A stretch of DNA of 64,000 bases. Origin: Gammaproteobacteria bacterium (GTDB lineage Bacteria > Pseudomonadota > Gammaproteobacteria > Nevskiales > Nevskiaceae). The stretch's first letter is position 1; the number at the start of each line of letters is the position of its first letter. The notes beneath the pieces were generated by a model. It ran no database searches, was not told the DNA's origin, and saw nothing but the letters and a program-made list of their open reading frames with translations. The position numbers and the translations under genes were made by a program. Location of the stretch: contig JAGWMX010000003.1 in assembly GCA_028871525.1 (NCBI GenBank), forward strand, positions 1-64,000, read 5' to 3'. Of this stretch, positions 2,100 through 49,565 are shown in pieces.

Positions 2100-3713
2100 T
2101 CAGATCTCCGGCGCCGCAGCCAGCGGCAGGCCGAGGTAGCCGAGGTGCTGGCGCGCCACCCGTCCGCGCAACGGCGGCAGCAGGCCGATGCCGAGCAGGC
2201 TCCAGTGGCGCACCTGGGCCAGCCCCGGCAGGCGGTTGGAGAAAGCTCGCACCATCAGATCGGTCAATTCGGCGACGGCGCGCCGATCGGTGCGGCGACC
2301 GGCCGCGTAGTCCTGCAGCAGTTCGCCGGCGCCCGGATCGCCGGCACCGGCCACCCGCTGCGCCAGGGCGGCGACATCGCGCAGACCGAGGTTGAACCCC
2401 TGCGCGGCGACCGGGTGCAGGCTTTGCGCGGCGTTGCCCAACAGCACCACGCGCGGCGCTCGCGTCGCCTCCACCACGCTCTCGGCCAACACCCGGGCCA
2501 GCGGGTAGGTCCAGCGCCGGCCGAGCGCACGGAACCGGCCCAGGCGTTCGCCGAAAGCCTGTTGTGCGGCGTGCAGATAGTCGGATTCCGGCTGCCGCAG
2601 CCGCTGCTCGGCCAGCGCGGCCGGCTGCGTCCACACCAGAGAGGCCGCCGCGTCCAGCCGCCATGCTCCGCTCGCGGCTAAAGGTTTCGGAATCAGCGCG
2701 AGCGGGCCGTCCACGGTGAAGCGCTCGTAGGCCACGCCGCGGTGCGGCCGCGAAAGCTGCACCGCGCTGACGATGGCTTGCTGGCCGTAGTCGCGCGTTT
2801 CGGCGGCGATACCCAGCAGCGACCGCACGCTGGACGCCGCGCCGTCGGCGGCCGCCAGCAGGCGCGTGCGCAGGCGGCGCCGGCCGCAATCGGTTTCGAC
2901 ATCGATCGTGACCGCCGCGGCCGCCGGCTGCACGCCGACCACCCGCGCCGGCACTAGCGTCTCGCAGGTATTTTCCAACTCCCGCCACAGCTGCGCGCCG
3001 ATCGCACGCAGCGGCACGTTGTAGCCGAGCGCCGGCAGCCCCAGCTCGGCGGCGGTGATCCGCAGCACGCCGAAACGACCGCGCTCGGACACATGCGTCG
3101 CCAGAATCGGTTCCGCCTGCGGCCGCAGCCGGTCCCAGAGGCCGAGCGCGGTGAAAATCCTCACCGAAGCATCGTTCAAGGCGATGCAGCGTTCGTCCCA
3201 GCCCGGCCTCGACACGGTGTCCGACCGCAGGTCGGTGGGTGCGGGAGAGGCCGGAGGGCTCGCGCAACAAGGTTCCGTCGAGGCTCCACGGCTGGCTGCC
3301 GCATCCACCGTTGCGGACGCCGCGTCGCGAGCCGGCCTCGACACGGTGTCCGACCGCAGGTCGGTGGGTGCGGGAGAGGCCGGAGGGCTCGCGCAACAAG
3401 GTTCCGTCGAGGCTCCACGGCTGGCTGCCGCATCCACCGTTGCAGTCACCGCGTCGCGAGCCGGCCTCGACACGGTGTCCGACCGCAGGTCGGCGGCTGC
3501 GAGAGAGGCCGGAGGGTTCGCGCAACAAGGTTCCGTCGAGGCTCCACGGCTGGCTGCCGCATCCACCGTTGCGGACGCCGTGTCGCGAGCCGGCGCCGGC
3601 GGCCGCGCCGCTTCGATCAGCGCTACGCGCAGCCGGCCGCCTTTGGCCAGCGCCACCGCCAGGCTGGCGCCGACCAGACCGCCGCCGACGATCACCACGT
3701 CATAGTCGTTCAC
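2100..3713 (-). CDS. ubiH: UbiH hydroxylase carrying a 129-residue triplicated insertion
   Basis: Homologue of 2-octaprenyl-6-methoxyphenol hydroxylase (ubiquinone pathway). It has the FAD motif VIVGGGLVGASLAVALAKGG near the N-terminus, and GNAAQ followed by HPVAAQGFNLGLRD in the C-terminal half. The GTG at 3713 is chosen because GAGGA lies 7 bases upstream and the protein then begins VNDYDVVIVGGG; the frame is open for 17 more codons upstream. The oddity is residues ~42-170: three in-frame copies of a 43-residue unit sit between the strand ending VALIEAARP and the conserved DERCIAL loop, adjoining segments in E. coli UbiH. Without them the protein would be about 408 aa, the usual size. Flanking motifs are intact, so activity is plausible but untested. 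Confidence 0.92.
   Translation of the reverse strand: MNDYDVVIVGGGLVGASLAVALAKGGRLRVALIEAARPPAPARDTASATVDAAASRGASTEPCCANPPASLAAADLRSDTVSRPARDAVTATVDAAASRGASTEPCCASPPASPAPTDLRSDTVSRPARDAASATVDAAASRGASTEPCCASPPASPAPTDLRSDTVSRPGWDERCIALNDASVRIFTALGLWDRLRPQAEPILATHVSERGRFGVLRITAAELGLPALGYNVPLRAIGAQLWRELENTCETLVPARVVGVQPAAAAVTIDVETDCGRRRLRTRLLAAADGAASSVRSLLGIAAETRDYGQQAIVSAVQLSRPHRGVAYERFTVDGPLALIPKPLAASGAWRLDAAASLVWTQPAALAEQRLRQPESDYLHAAQQAFGERLGRFRALGRRWTYPLARVLAESVVEATRAPRVVLLGNAAQSLHPVAAQGFNLGLRDVAALAQRVAGAGDPGAGELLQDYAAGRRTDRRAVAELTDLMVRAFSNRLPGLAQVRHWSLLGIGLLPPLRGRVARQHLGYLGLPLAAAPEI
3204..3590 (-). repeat. Family 1 repeat: three tandem 129-bp units within ubiH
   Basis: Three head-to-tail units of exactly 129 bp start at 3204, 3333 and 3462. 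Units 1 and 2 differ at only a few bases near their end, and unit 3 differs at a few more. Each begins CGGCCTCGACACGGTGTCCG on the plus strand and ends near GTCGCGAGC. Because 129 is 43 codons, the ubiH frame is preserved through all three; each unit encodes a low-complexity Ala/Ser/Pro/Thr-rich peptide containing ASRGASTEPCCA and DLRSDTVSRP. A related single copy is inside queG at 12817-12948 in the same sense orientation. Near-identity of the units suggests recent tandem amplification. Confidence 0.95.
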
Positions 3714-10678: not shown

Positions 10679-12289
10679 TCAAGGGTTGACGACGGCGCGC
10701 AGCTCGGCGATCAGGTCCAGCGCCGACAGCCCCCGCTCGCCACCGGCTGCGGCGGCGCGGTCGCCGGCCAGTGCATGCGCCAGCACGCCGGCAGACGCCG
10801 CGGTGTCGGGTGTCAGACCCTGCGCCAAAAACGCCGCGATGACGCCGGTCAGCGCGTCGCCCATGCCGCCGGCGGCCATGCCCGGGTTGCCGAACGGACA
10901 AACCCGGATCCCGGAGGCGGTGAAAACCAGGCTGCCGGCACCTTTGAGCAGCGGAGTGCCGCCATAGCGCTGTGCCAGCGCCCGCAGCGCCGCCGGCCGG
11001 TCGGCCTGCACCGCGGCGGTGTCGCAGCCCAGCAGGCGCGCCGCCTCGCCGGGGTGCGGAGTCAACACCCAGTCGTTGCGCCGGCGCGGTCGCTCGGCCA
11101 GCAGGTTCAGCGCGTCGGCATCCACTACCAGGCGCGGCGCGTCGATCACGGCGGCCAGCATCGCCTTTCCCCATGCGTCGCGGCCGAGACCCGGCCCCAG
11201 CGCCACCACGTCGGCGTGCTCCAGCAGCGGCGCAAGCTCGCCGGCCGATTCGACGCCGCGCCACATCGCTTCCGGCTGCGCCGCCACCATCACGTGGGCG
11301 TGCGCATGGCGGGTGGCGACGCTCACCAGTCCGGCACCGGCACGCAGCGCCGCGCGCGCCGCCAGCAGCGCGGCGCCGGCCATGCCGTGCTCGCCGCCGA
11401 TGACCAGCACGTAGCCGTAGCGTCCCTTGTGGCCGTCGCGCGCCCGCGGCGGCAGCCAGCGGCGCAGATCGTCGCGGCCGGCCAGCCGCGCCGCCGGCTC
11501 GATGCCTTCGTATATAGCTGCCGGCACGTCCAGGGATTCGAACCGGATTTCGCCGCACAGGCGGGGACCGGCGCCGGTGTAGAGCCCGAGCTTGGGCGCA
11601 ATGAAGGTCACCGTCAGATCCGCCGACACGGCGGCTCCGGGTGCGGCGCCGGTGTCGGCAAAAAGGCCCGACGGCAGATCCAGCGCCAATACCTTGGCGC
11701 TCTTGTATGTTTCGTACCCGCCATCCGCAGCGCAACGTCGATGACTTCGTTCAACCCCGGCCCGCCCTTCCCTGGCCGGGCGTTCGGGGTCGCCGCAACC
11801 GGGGGTCGCGAACCGCGGTCCCTCACCTCCAACGGCGTTGATCGCCTCGATTGCCCGCTGTGCGGAACCCTGCGGCGCCCGCGACAGGCCGGTTCCGAAC
11901 AGCGCATCCACCACCAGTTCGGCCCGTGCCAGCGTCACGCCCGTGTCCTCGTCCCACGGCCGCACTTCGCCGCCGACCGCACGCCAGGCGGCGCAGGCAC
12001 GCTCGGCATCGCTGCCCGGCGCCGGCGGCGCCACCGCATAGACCTGTACCTGGCAGCCGTCGGCGACTGCCAGCCGCGCCAGCGCGTAGCCGTCGCCGCC
12101 GTTGTTGCCGGAACCGCAGATCACGGCCACGCGCCGCACATGCGGCCAGCGCCGGCGCACCGCGCCCCAGGCCGCCGCCGCGGCGCGGCGCATCAGTTCG
12201 CCGCCGGCAATGCCATGTACCGCGATCGCGCGGCGATCCAGTTCGCGTACCTGCGCGGCTGCGTACAATGCGGTCGATGGGTCGTTCAT
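10679..12289 (-). CDS. nnr: Bifunctional NAD(P)HX epimerase/dehydratase with repeat insertion
   Basis: Repairs hydrated NADH/NADPH. The N-terminal epimerase domain (YjeF_N, ~1-230) shows GSGNNGGDGYALARLA. The C-terminal dehydratase domain (~240-536) shows KGRYGYVLVIGG, GPGLGRDAWGKA, VVDADALNLLAE and GGMGDALTGVIAAFL. Start ATG 12289 gives MNDPSTALYAAAQ; a longer frame from 12313 would overlap queG. In the epimerase domain, conserved AIEAINA and KVLALDLPSG are separated by about 45 extra residues (~155-197) that come from a family 2 repeat; normally they are a few residues apart. The frame is kept and both active-site regions are intact. Divergent from queG, with 14 bases between start codons. 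Confidence 0.93.
   Translation of the reverse strand: MNDPSTALYAAAQVRELDRRAIAVHGIAGGELMRRAAAAAWGAVRRRWPHVRRVAVICGSGNNGGDGYALARLAVADGCQVQVYAVAPPAPGSDAERACAAWRAVGGEVRPWDEDTGVTLARAELVVDALFGTGLSRAPQGSAQRAIEAINAVGGEGPRFATPGCGDPERPAREGRAGVERSHRRCAADGGYETYKSAKVLALDLPSGLFADTGAAPGAAVSADLTVTFIAPKLGLYTGAGPRLCGEIRFESLDVPAAIYEGIEPAARLAGRDDLRRWLPPRARDGHKGRYGYVLVIGGEHGMAGAALLAARAALRAGAGLVSVATRHAHAHVMVAAQPEAMWRGVESAGELAPLLEHADVVALGPGLGRDAWGKAMLAAVIDAPRLVVDADALNLLAERPRRRNDWVLTPHPGEAARLLGCDTAAVQADRPAALRALAQRYGGTPLLKGAGSLVFTASGIRVCPFGNPGMAAGGMGDALTGVIAAFLAQGLTPDTAASAGVLAHALAGDRAAAAGGERGLSALDLIAELRAVVNP
11703..11827 (-). repeat. Family 2 repeat copy inside nnr
   Basis: This stretch aligns with the two tandem copies at 48551-48787. 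On the plus strand it runs from CTTGTATGTTTCGTACCCGC through CCCTGGCCGGGCGTTCGGGG to GGTCGCGAACCGCGGTCCCT. The two hairpins that are perfect in the other copies are degenerate here, suggesting an older insertion. Its minus-strand translation in the nnr frame gives GEGPRFAT, PERPAREGRAG and GYETYK. The first two are in the same frame and nearly identical in the exonuclease tail at 48697-49557. Confidence 0.9.
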
Positions 12290-12296
12290 CCGGTGG

Positions 12297-12303: not shown

Positions 12304-13515
12304 GTGGCCGCAAACCGCACTCCGATCGGCGGCGCGGCTGACGCGGTTGGGCGCATCCGGCGCCTGGCGCGCGAATACGGCTTCGCCGACGCCGGTATCG
12401 CGCGCCTCGACCTCGGCGAGGATCTGCAGCACCTGCGCGACTGGCTGGCGGCCGGTCATCACGGCACCATGGCCTACATGGCGCGCGCGCCCGAGCAGCG
12501 CGCTGACCCGCAACGGCTGCGGCCCGGCACCGTGTCGGTGATCAGCCTGCGGATGGACTGCACGCCGCCGGCCGCGGACGCCGCGGCGGTGCTGGCCGAC
12601 GCCCGCCTGGCCTACATCGCCCGCTACGCCCTGGGTCGCGACTACCACCGCCTGCTGCGCCATCGGCTGCTGAAGCTCGCCGCGCGTATCGGCGGGGAAA
12701 TCGCCCCGCACGGCTACCGGGTGCTGACCGACAGCGCTCCGGCGCTGGAGAAAGCCTTGGCCCGCAACGCCGGCCTGGGCTCGATCGGCAAGAACACTCT
12801 GCTGCTGCAGCGCAAAGCCGGCTCGCGACACGGTGTCGGGACCGGCTCGCCAGCCGGAAGTGAGCCAGTGGCCTCGGCCGACTCCTTCCTTCGCGAGCCC
12901 TCCGACCCCTCCCGCACCCGCCAAGCTTCGCTCGGGCACCGTGTCGGGGCCGGCTCGATGTTTCTGCTCGGCGAGATCTACACCGACATGCCGCTGCCGG
13001 CCGACGCGCCGCCGCCGCGCGACCTGTGCGGCGCCTGCCGCGCCTGCCTTGATATCTGCCCGACGAAAGCCTTCACCGGCCCTTACCAACTCGATGCCCG
13101 GCGCTGCATCTCCTACCTGACCATCGAAAATCGCGGCCCGATTCCGGTCGAACTGCGGCCAGCCATCGGCAACCGCATCTTCGGCTGCGACGACTGCCAA
13201 CTCGTCTGCCCGTGGAACCGCTACGCACGGTCGACCGACGAGCCGGATTTCGCCCCCCGCCACGGGCTGAGCGCGACGAAGCTGGTCGAGCTGTTCGCCT
13301 GGAGCGAGGAAGAATGGCTGATGCGCACCGAGGGCACGGCGCTGCGCCGGGCGACATATCGAGGCTGGCTGCGTAATCTCGCCGTAGCGCTCGGCAATGC
13401 GCCGGCGTCAGCGGAAATCGACGCGGCGCTGGCGGCGCGGGCCGGCGAGGCGGATGCAATGGTGCGCGAGCACGTGGCGTGGGCGCGCGCGCGACGACGC
13501 TCGGCGGCTGCTTGA
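12304..13515 (+). CDS. queG: Epoxyqueuosine reductase QueG with 44-residue insertion
   Basis: Cobalamin- and iron-sulfur-dependent enzyme that reduces epoxyqueuosine to queuosine in tRNA. The N-terminal B12-binding part includes DWLAAGHHGTMAYM and GLGSIGKNTLLL (~160-175). Two ferredoxin-like clusters are bound by CGACRACLDICPTKAF (~238-253) and CDDCQLVCPWN (~297-307); a HEAT-like C-terminal segment follows. GTG 12304 gives the standard N-terminus. Residues ~172-215 are a family 1 repeat between KAGS and MFLLGE, segments that are contiguous in other QueG proteins. AGS is duplicated at both edges, as expected if the insertion created a short direct repeat. Without it the protein would be about 359 aa. 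All cluster cysteines remain. Confidence 0.93.
   Translation: MAANRTPIGGAADAVGRIRRLAREYGFADAGIARLDLGEDLQHLRDWLAAGHHGTMAYMARAPEQRADPQRLRPGTVSVISLRMDCTPPAADAAAVLADARLAYIARYALGRDYHRLLRHRLLKLAARIGGEIAPHGYRVLTDSAPALEKALARNAGLGSIGKNTLLLQRKAGSRHGVGTGSPAGSEPVASADSFLREPSDPSRTRQASLGHRVGAGSMFLLGEIYTDMPLPADAPPPRDLCGACRACLDICPTKAFTGPYQLDARRCISYLTIENRGPIPVELRPAIGNRIFGCDDCQLVCPWNRYARSTDEPDFAPRHGLSATKLVELFAWSEEEWLMRTEGTALRRATYRGWLRNLAVALGNAPASAEIDAALAARAGEADAMVREHVAWARARRRSAAA
12817..12948 (+). repeat. Family 1 repeat copy inside queG
   Basis: A 132-bp insertion bounded by a 9-bp direct repeat, GCCGGCTCG at 12817-12825 and again at 12949-12957. It aligns along its length with the ubiH units read on their sense strand. 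Shared blocks include CGCGAGCCCTCC, CTCCCGCACCC and CACCGTGTCG followed by GCCGGCTCG. It is translated in a different frame from ubiH (LREPSDPSRTRQ and GHRVGAGS instead of ASPPASPAPTDL), so the element is open in more than one frame. The near-palindrome CGACACGGTGTCG sits at its left edge, and its partner CACCGTGTCG at the right. Confidence 0.92.
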
Positions 13516-47228: not shown

Positions 47229-48569
47229 TCAGTCTTCACGCTCGAACAGCGCCATGGTCTCGACATGCGCGGTGTGCGGGAACATGTCCAGCACGCCGAC
47301 GCGCCGCAGCCTGTACCCGCCTTCGCGCACCAGCAGGCCGGCGTCGCGGGCCAGCGTGCCGGGATGGCAGGAGACGTAGAGCACACGCGCCGGCGCGCGG
47401 GGCAGCAACAGCCGCAGCACGTCCTGGGCGCCGGTACGCGGCGGATCCAGCAGCAGCGCCGAGTAGTCGCGCGCCAGCCACGGCGCCTGCGCCGATGGCT
47501 GCAGCAGATCGGCCCATACCGCCTCCAGCGGCAAACGGTTGGAAGCCGCATTGGCACGGGCGCGGTCAACCAGCCGCACGTCGCCCTCGATCGCGGTCAC
47601 GCGACAGCCGGCCGCCGCCAGCGGCAGGCTGAAATGACCCAGGCCGCAGAACAGCTCCAGCACCGCCGCGCCGGGCGCCGGCGCCAGCCAGTCCAGAACC
47701 TGCCGCACCATCGCTTGAGAGATTTCCGGATTGATCTGCACGAAATCCGTCGGCCGGAACTCAAGTCTCAGCTCGCCGGCGTCCGGCGAATAACGCAGCG
47801 CGCGCGCAGGCGGGTGCAGCGGGCTGACGCTGTCCGGCCCGCCTGGCTGCAGATACAGCTCAAAGCCGGTGTCGGCGGCGAATTCAGCCAGCAGCTGACG
47901 GTCGGCGGCGTCGGGCATGCGCAGCACTCGCACCACCAGCGCGACGTGCTCAGCGCAGGCCACCTCGATTTGCGGAACGCTGTCGGCGATCGACAGCCGG
48001 CCGAGCATCTCGGCCAACGCTGCCAGCCGCATGCCAACGCGCGCGTCGAGTACTTCACAACGGGACAGTTGCGCCAATAACGGCGAGTGGCGCTGGCGGA
48101 AACCGACAATCACGCCACCCTTGCGCAGCACCAGCTTGACGCCCAGCCGCGCGCGGCGGCGGTAGCTCCAGACCGGGCCGGTCAACGGCGGCGCCATTTG
48201 CTGCGGCTGCACGCCACCGATACGCTGCAACGCATCCAGCACCCACCGCTGCTTGTACGCGACTTGCGCCGCCGGCGCCAGATGCTGCAGGGCACAGCCG
48301 CCGCAGACGCCGAAATGCCGGCAGCGCGGGGCGACGCGATCGGCCGCGCGCGTTTCCAGCTGCAGTACCGTCGCCTCGTCGGTCCGCCGCTTGCGGCGCC
48401 GCAGGCGTGCAAGCACACGCTCGCCGGGCAGGGCGTCGTCCAGCATCACCACCTTGCCGGCATGCTTGCCGTCCAGCCAACGGCCGAGACCGCGGCCGTC
48501 GTCAGTCAGCGCGACGACTTCGGCCAGGGCTTCGATGCCGGGTTGTTTCTTTGCGTGTCTGCCATCCAT
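47229..48569 (-). CDS. rlmD: 23S rRNA m5U1939 methyltransferase, start built from repeat
   Basis: Iron-sulfur SAM methyltransferase modifying U1939 of 23S rRNA. An N-terminal TRAM domain (VVALTDDGRGLGRWLDGKHA) precedes the [4Fe-4S] ligands CRHFGVCGGCALQH. SAM binding is VLELFCGLGHFSLPLA, followed by LLLDPPRTGAQDV and the catalytic cysteine in VLYVSCHPGTLARD. The product is 446 aa. The ATG at 48569 lies inside a family 2 repeat, so residues 1-5 (MDGRH) come from the element (compare MDGRYGTYK in the next copy and DGGYETYK in nnr). The frame stays open 84 codons further through both copies, but that part reads as repeat, not TRAM. Confidence 0.9.
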   Translation of the reverse strand: MDGRHAKKQPGIEALAEVVALTDDGRGLGRWLDGKHAGKVVMLDDALPGERVLARLRRRKRRTDEATVLQLETRAADRVAPRCRHFGVCGGCALQHLAPAAQVAYKQRWVLDALQRIGGVQPQQMAPPLTGPVWSYRRRARLGVKLVLRKGGVIVGFRQRHSPLLAQLSRCEVLDARVGMRLAALAEMLGRLSIADSVPQIEVACAEHVALVVRVLRMPDAADRQLLAEFAADTGFELYLQPGGPDSVSPLHPPARALRYSPDAGELRLEFRPTDFVQINPEISQAMVRQVLDWLAPAPGAAVLELFCGLGHFSLPLAAAGCRVTAIEGDVRLVDRARANAASNRLPLEAVWADLLQPSAQAPWLARDYSALLLDPPRTGAQDVLRLLLPRAPARVLYVSCHPGTLARDAGLLVREGGYRLRRVGVLDMFPHTAHVETMALFERED

Positions 48570-48660
48570 GCGCGGTCTATGGCTTCGGTTCGGGCCCGGC
48601 CCGGCCATCCCTGGCCGGGCGTTCGGGACCGTCGCGACCCGTGGTCGCGAAGCACGGCCC
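48551..48660 (-). repeat. Family 2 repeat, copy next to rlmD
   Basis: About 110 bp. It contains two perfect hairpins on the plus strand: GCCCGGCCA-TCCC-TGGCCGGGC (48599-48620) and TCGCGACC-CGT-GGTCGCGA (48632-48650). Its left end provides the rlmD start codon. It is immediately followed by a second copy in the same orientation; the shared stretch CCCGGCCATCCCTGGCCGGG and its flanks are identical. Confidence 0.93.
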
Positions 48661-48787
48661 CTTGTATGTTCCATACCTGCCGTCCATGGCGCGACCTCAG
48701 CGGTTCTCGGATGGCCCGGCCCGGCCATCCCTGGCCGGGCGTTCGGGGCCATCGCGACCCGTGGTCGCGAAGCACGGCCCCTCACCC
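48661..48787 (-). repeat. Family 2 repeat, copy forming the exonuclease C-terminus
   Basis: About 127 bp, starting CTTGTATGTTCCATACCTGC, which itself holds a small GTATG-TTC-CATAC hairpin, and containing the same two perfect hairpins as the preceding copy. Read on the minus strand it encodes GEGPCFATTG then GPERPARDGRAG and the stop of the exonuclease gene at 48697. This is the same frame and nearly the same peptide as the nnr insertion. Confidence 0.93.
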
Positions 48788-49557
48788 CAGGCGCGCGCGA
48801 ACTCGACCCAATGCGGCGCACCGCCGGCGGCGACGAAAGCGCGCACCCGCGCCTCCTCGGCCAGCCAGGCGTCGGCGTCGAGCAGGCCGCGCAGGCGCTG
48901 GAAACGCAGGAACAGCAGATAGGTGTTCAGCGCGTCGGTCTCGCAATAGGCGCGCACCGCGGCCAGCCGGCCGGCGCGAACCGCATCGGCAACCTGGCTG
49001 CCGTCCATGCCCAGCTTGCCGGGCAGGCCGCACAGCCGCGCCAGTTCGTCGAGGCGCACGTAGTTGCGGGCCTGGTACAGCGCCAGCACGTCCATCAGGT
49101 CGATGTGGCGGAACTGGTAGCGTCCGATGTAGCTGTCCCACTTCGATTCGCGCTCGAAGTGCCCGGTGTCCCAGTAGCGCGGTGCGGCAATGCCGTGGAT
49201 CAGCGCGCGGTAGTGCATCACCGGCAGGTCGAAACCGGAGCCGTTCCACGACACCAGCACCGGCCGGTATTTCTCGATGCCGTCGAAGAACCGCTGGATC
49301 AGCTCGGCCTCGGCAGCGGCCGGATCGCCCAGGGACCACACCCGCAGCTCGTCGCCGGCGCGCAGGCAGCAGGCGATGGCCGCCACTCTCTGCAGGTGCG
49401 GCGGCAGAAACTCATTGCCCTTTTCGGCGCGCTGGCGCGCCAGCAGCGCGGCTTCGGCGGCGGCGGCGTCGACGCCATCGAGCGGGTACAGCCGGCGTGC
49501 GCCGTCGACGTCCGGAACCGTCTCGATGTCGAATGCCAGTGTCGGTTCGACGGCCAT
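48697..49557 (-). CDS. Predicted 3'-5' exonuclease (DnaQ/PolB type) with repeat-derived tail
   Basis: A DEDD-family exonuclease domain protein of 286 aa. The metal-binding DIE motif is in LAFDIETVPD (residues ~8-17); Exo II-like is PVLVSWNGSGFDLPVMHYR; the C-terminal motif AVRAYCETDALNTYLLFLRF follows (with a Tyr/Cys-Glu-Thr-Asp). This matches the family annotated as predicted 3'-5' exonuclease related to the PolB exonuclease domain. The last ~26 residues (after EFARAWG) come from a family 2 repeat that supplies the stop codon, so the native C-terminus has been replaced or extended. It is between cysM (8-bp gap) and rlmD. Confidence 0.88.
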   Translation of the reverse strand: MAVEPTLAFDIETVPDVDGARRLYPLDGVDAAAAEAALLARQRAEKGNEFLPPHLQRVAAIACCLRAGDELRVWSLGDPAAAEAELIQRFFDGIEKYRPVLVSWNGSGFDLPVMHYRALIHGIAAPRYWDTGHFERESKWDSYIGRYQFRHIDLMDVLALYQARNYVRLDELARLCGLPGKLGMDGSQVADAVRAGRLAAVRAYCETDALNTYLLFLRFQRLRGLLDADAWLAEEARVRAFVAAGGAPHWVEFARAWGEGPCFATTGRDGPERPARDGRAGPSENR

Positions 49558-49565
49558 CGCGGCGC

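Follow-up and report, generated by a model that had tools for sequence, protein, structure and literature searches.

The exonuclease/rlmD junction

The source genome is a 2.71-Mb draft in 146 contigs, 92% complete. In the window, by which we mean the whole 64,000-nt stretch of DNA that was analysed, the minus strand carries cysM, a PolB-type 3'-5' exonuclease gene and rlmD in that order, and the junction between the last two is occupied by two tandem copies of a repeated element. The features of the locus are as follows:

47229–48569, minus strand: rlmD (23S rRNA U1939 methyltransferase), with its start codon inside copy A
~48552–48663, minus strand: element copy A, in tandem with copy B, beginning AAGGGG and with a diverged 3' end; it contributes the RlmD ATG and ~5 codons
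48567–48569, minus strand: RlmD ATG, inside copy A
48664–48783, minus strand: element copy B, 120 nt, sense strand GAGGGG...CATAC; it encodes exonuclease residues 260–287 and the stop
48697–48699, minus strand: exonuclease TGA stop, inside copy B
48697–49560, minus strand: PolB-type 3'-5' exonuclease with an element-encoded C-terminal tail; PF10108 matches residues 49–258 of 287
48784–48787, minus strand: GGGT target or tag tetranucleotide, directly 5' of copy B

Copies A and B are 97% identical across a 70-nt core. The initial annotation had proposed that two tandem repeats at 48551–48787 rebuild this junction, one giving the exonuclease its last ~26 residues and stop codon and the other giving RlmD its ATG and first residues. 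The pair is indeed in place, with a start-to-start distance of exactly 120 nt, but its limits are corrected to 48664–48783 and ~48552–48663, and the flanking GGGT that had been included in the span is better read as a target than as part of the element. The exonuclease C-terminus reads ...EFARAWG, followed by the copy B-encoded EGPCFATTGRDGPERPARDGRAGPSENR and then the stop, so that the tail contributed by the repeat is 28 residues long rather than ~26. The assignment of the RlmD start to the other copy holds at the level of sequence. The frame from the ATG at 48569 begins MDGRHAKKQPGIEAL, and RlmD reads MDGRHAKKQPGIEALAEVV. There is no ATG, GTG or TTG between 48569 and the first conserved RlmD residues, and any standard start must therefore lie within the repeats; a possible alternative, the in-frame ATG at 48672, is likewise repeat-borne. 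No clear Shine-Dalgarno sequence was seen upstream of 48569. As far as the sequence can tell, then, the exonuclease tail and stop codon and the RlmD start codon derive from the repeats.

In relatives with adjacent exonuclease and rlmD genes (loci L052, L053, L055 and L057) the junction is free of repeats. Their exonuclease terminates 2–8 residues past its final conserved Trp. No more than ~40 nt separate this end from the start of RlmD, whose N-terminus is short and basic, for example MTHRKKKPLPAGEF or MGRRARPKPLPTEEL. By comparison with these loci the native RlmD N-terminus in the present genome was probably (M)..AKKQPG..., and the element would have displaced both the native exonuclease stop and the native RlmD start.

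The element family and its predicted structure

A BLAST search with the full unit matched 38 places in the present genome, comprising the best self-match (E 9e-121) and 37 others, and the repeats are thus not due to chance. A covariance model built from 25 copies gave 61 matches in the present genome and detected the element in 24 of the 41 genomes searched, the present one included. An exact-pattern scan of contigs returned matches in Nevskia, Solimonas, Stagnimonas, Hydrocarboniphaga, Lysobacter, Luteimonas, Xanthomonas, Thermomonas and others, and the element is found in many Nevskiaceae and Lysobacteraceae. From this distribution the window itself probably belongs in the neighbourhood of Nevskiaceae/Solimonadaceae. 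In most copies the unit is 120 nt, or 40 codons, with a sense strand running GAGGG...CATAC. A sub-group of copies (L010:124-195, L028 and L029) departs from the others in its inner stem, GAGCA.TGCTC, and in its middle segment, and is possibly a separate element lineage.

Of 74 copies examined in other genomes, 64 have the tetranucleotide GGGT immediately 5' of the element, and no conservation is seen further upstream. In the RND pump that carries an insert, the Met-Gly preceding it also occurs in the two closest relatives, while all five aligned relatives have the Gly, and the Gly preceding the insert in the lipoyl-E2 protein is likewise present in relatives. Since these Gly codons are shared with relatives, GGGT is best read as target and not as element. 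The relatives are ~60% identical in protein and provide no allelic empty site at the DNA level, and that no target duplication is made is therefore judged from protein alignments, in which none is visible.

In different species the element lies at the end of one tyrosine recombinase gene (L133, L195) and at the guaB/guaA junction (L143, L182; genes named by eye from sequence). The occurrence of copies at the same gene across species suggests either recurrent insertion at one stop-codon context or inherited insertions.

Both junction copies contain the two perfect hairpins described in the initial annotation, exactly as given there: GCCCGGCCA-TCCC-TGGCCGGGC with 9 bp, and TCGCGACC-CGT-GGTCGCGA with 8 bp, the second being extended, beyond a bulge, by an outer stem of ~8 bp. 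In the consensus structure predicted by RNAalifold, GGGT-GA is followed by an outer stem of 8 pairs, a 4-nt bulge and an inner stem of 7 bp closed by a loop of 3 nt; 3' of this long hairpin come a second one of 8 bp and a short third. Compensatory changes on both sides were found in 12 of the 26 predicted pairs, and in outer-stem pairs as many as 12 of 25 sequences had both sides changed. The fold has a z-score of -2.8 when about one copy is folded as RNA and of -5.2 when both copies are folded as DNA. The hairpin is kept across intergenic, terminal and intragenic copies, which agrees better with a need of the element itself, mobility as single-stranded DNA, than with a role in any single gene. 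The coding part of the earlier proposal stands at the level of sequence, with tail, stop and start repeat-derived and the junction of relatives repeat-free. The suggested function as RNA structures within the operon is no more than a possibility: REP/IS200-like mobilisation as single-stranded DNA accounts for the covarying hairpins at least as well.

Copies within and at the ends of other genes

At least five further conserved genes in the present genome also contain the element in frame, a wider pattern that the initial annotation did not mention. One of these is in the window:

10679–12292, minus strand: nnr (NAD(P)H-hydrate epimerase/dehydratase), holding the third copy in frame
11705–11824, minus strand: third window copy of the element, in frame within nnr, with a net gain of 40 aa versus relatives

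Nnr and an RND permease (L011) each contain a net 40-residue insertion compared with relatives, with homology intact on either side, and the alignment of Nnr to the solved structure 2ax3 breaks off after residue 155 and is taken up again at 198. RlmJ (L016) has an in-frame insert of about two copies, the lipoyl-E2 protein (L027) has its insert in the linker after the lipoyl domain, an Lhr-type helicase (L022) has an in-frame copy between WH3 and WH4, and PelB (L023) also bears one. At protein ends, the junction closely follows the last conserved domain. In Hda, the Hda_lid match (65/65) ends at residue 650 and the junction is at 651, leaving an element-encoded tail of 24 aa; in a Cys/Met PLP enzyme, Cys_Met (380/381) ends at 327 with the junction at 328 and a tail of 28 aa; and in HemF, Coprogen_oxidas (295/295) ends at 340, which is also the junction, with a tail of 6 aa. 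The tail added to a TonB receptor is 3 aa. The BPL_C match (48/48) ends at 294 with the junction at 295, and in BirA, PgpA and a pyrophosphatase the TGA stop arises across the junction itself, from the T of GGGT and the GA of the element. Copies of the same kind were found in the isolates Luteimonas aquatica (L194), in frame in a GMP/PMI enzyme (GMP_PMI), and Solimonas aquatica (L169), as an element-derived tail on NifE.

A second and apparently unrelated repeat family, with a 129-nt unit, is also found in frame in conserved genes of the window: three tandem 43-codon copies lie within a UbiH-type FAD monooxygenase (3194–3594, minus strand) and a single copy lies within QueG (~12820–12960, plus strand).

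Among 55 own and foreign copies with a sense-direction coding sequence upstream, the junction phase places TGA in frame in 34, allows read-through in 16 and falls in the third phase in 5. The GGGT sites available in the window's predicted genes are distributed 46:27:89 (read-through : stop : third) and are about equal on the two strands (162 vs 157). Internal insertions are all in the sense direction (6/6) and five of the six are in the read-through phase (p about 0.02–0.03 against target availability), while all own sense copies have phases of 9:3:2 (p about 0.006), these tests being based on small samples and on phase labels that depend on a simple codon model. As most reading frames of the element are open, the bias favours purging of bad insertions over selection for a peptide. 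Long open GTG-AGG frames in five Lysobacteraceae copies (L133, L140, L143, L182 and L195) were judged to be out of frame with the real upstream gene, which has TGA at the junction.

Proposed origin and comparison with known systems

The repeats at the exonuclease/rlmD junction are, in our judgement, probably copies of a short, non-autonomous, REP-like mobile palindrome that is tolerated in coding sequence and has here replaced a native stop and start. The element would insert on one strand, immediately 3' of GGGT and with no visible target duplication, and a trans-acting HUH-type transposase (Y1/RAYT-like) would move it in single-stranded form; we infer this mode of transposition because a fixed left-flank tetranucleotide combined with a subterminal hairpin is the pattern of IS200/IS605 and REP systems (PMC6006769). 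At this junction a single insertion near the exonuclease stop may have come first and a tandem duplication afterwards, with the outcome that the exonuclease would acquire its 28-residue tail and RlmD would start at an ATG in the 3' end of the element. Copies may persist where a 120-nt unit that preserves the frame and contains few stops lands in loops, linkers and protein ends, whereas insertions causing frameshift or truncation would be purged. The element-encoded peptide is unlikely to be adaptive; a neutral to mildly harmful effect is the most likely.

A search for the mobiliser found no Y1_Tnp in the present genome (a 92% complete draft), none of the 8 Y1 loci examined in relatives is flanked by the element, and Y1 matches are lacking altogether in several relatives that bear the element; a RAYT/Y1 enzyme was for these reasons set aside as the local driver. 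The present genome does contain two Y2_Tnp (IS91-type HUH) genes (G000:C23:6771-7268 and G000:C10:42866-43537), and these were likewise rejected as the driver given that Y2 genes, rare among the relatives in general, are absent from most of those that bear the element.

The repeats could instead be retained chiefly for an RNA function in the operon, serving as mRNA stabiliser, processing site or attenuator, with their coding role incidental. This would agree with the stable covarying hairpins (z -2.8) and with the many copies at or just past gene ends, a position typical of REPs (PMC3733652), but the same structure is found in coding regions distant from gene ends (RND, Nnr, RlmJ and Lhr), the relatives keep the exonuclease/rlmD pair without repeats, there is no T-tract, and Rfam gave no family at the gathering threshold and only implausible matches below it, and we regard this explanation as unlikely. 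Domestication, in which the tail or insert peptide would be beneficial through localisation or binding and selection would act for the frame-A peptide GEG.CFATTGRG.PERPARDGRAG, seems to us very improbable. The internal insertions are all sense and mostly in one frame, with the p value against target availability given above, and similar peptides do occur in unrelated proteins; the element is, however, open in most of its frames regardless, peptide identity tracks DNA identity, the target proteins are unrelated, relatives lack the inserts and the sample is small. That a fragmented 146-contig draft might have misjoined repeats into the gene junction has to be considered, repeats being where assemblies err, yet the junction repeatedly falls on one and the same base after GGGT, with the frame kept and with homologous flanks on both sides, and the same anatomy is seen in the named isolates L. 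aquatica and S. aquatica, which makes an assembly artefact scarcely credible.

The wider reading of the mobile palindrome stands at about even chances: it would represent an undescribed GGGT-tagged class in Nevskiaceae and Lysobacteraceae, able to spread through protein-coding sequence because it is 40 codons long and poor in stops, and routinely remodelling the ends and loops of conserved enzymes and re-forming a TGA at its own junction. Selfish palindromes that lie in frame have so far been regarded chiefly as an oddity of Rickettsia and Wolbachia and of a few REP-rich species. A distinct palindrome family with in-frame behaviour is now seen in partly culturable gammaproteobacteria, and with culturable carriers the entry of a mobile element into coding sequence and its effect on enzymes become directly testable. 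There is also a warning for annotation, in that the starts, stops and "lineage-specific extensions" of many genes in these families may be repeat-derived.

The open-access literature, to which the search was confined, yielded no account of a GGGT-tagged family with a 120-nt unit. Rickettsia palindromic elements (RPE; Ogata et al. 2000, as described in PMC2229807) are repeats of 105–146 bp found in frame in conserved protein genes as well as in intergenic regions. The present element resembles them in these respects: it is a palindromic repeat of ~120 nt in many copies (61) with covarying hairpins, it lies in frame in conserved genes that relatives have insert-free (RND, Nnr, RlmJ and E2), and its target proteins are unrelated and apparently tolerate the insert. 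It differs in having consecutive hairpins behind a GGGT tag, whereas RPEs are described with terminal inverted repeats, and in its host, a high-GC gammaproteobacterium only distantly related to the intracellular Rickettsia.

The likeness to the GTAG/CGTC REPs (Di Nocera et al. 2013, PMC3733652) extends to a short tag that is left unpaired immediately 5' of an imperfect long hairpin (here GGGT-GA, 8-bp stem, bulge and 7-bp stem), to copies at gene 3' ends, to some copies inside genes and to tandem groups. GTAG REPs often supply a TAG stop codon (PMC3733652), and the tag contributes to the stop here also, as TGA. On the other hand the tag is GGGT (64/74 copies) and not GTAG or CGTC, and the unit is 120 nt of fixed composition as against 20–40 bp for REPs. 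Unlike IS200/IS605 Y1 and RAYT/REP systems, the element has no GT[AG]G guide and no Y1 gene in its own genome, and none was found flanked by it among the 8 Y1 loci of relatives. It nevertheless shares with IS200/IS605 Y1 and RAYT/REP systems (PMC6006769) a conserved left-flank target tetranucleotide, a subterminal hairpin, strand specificity and a long bulged hairpin.
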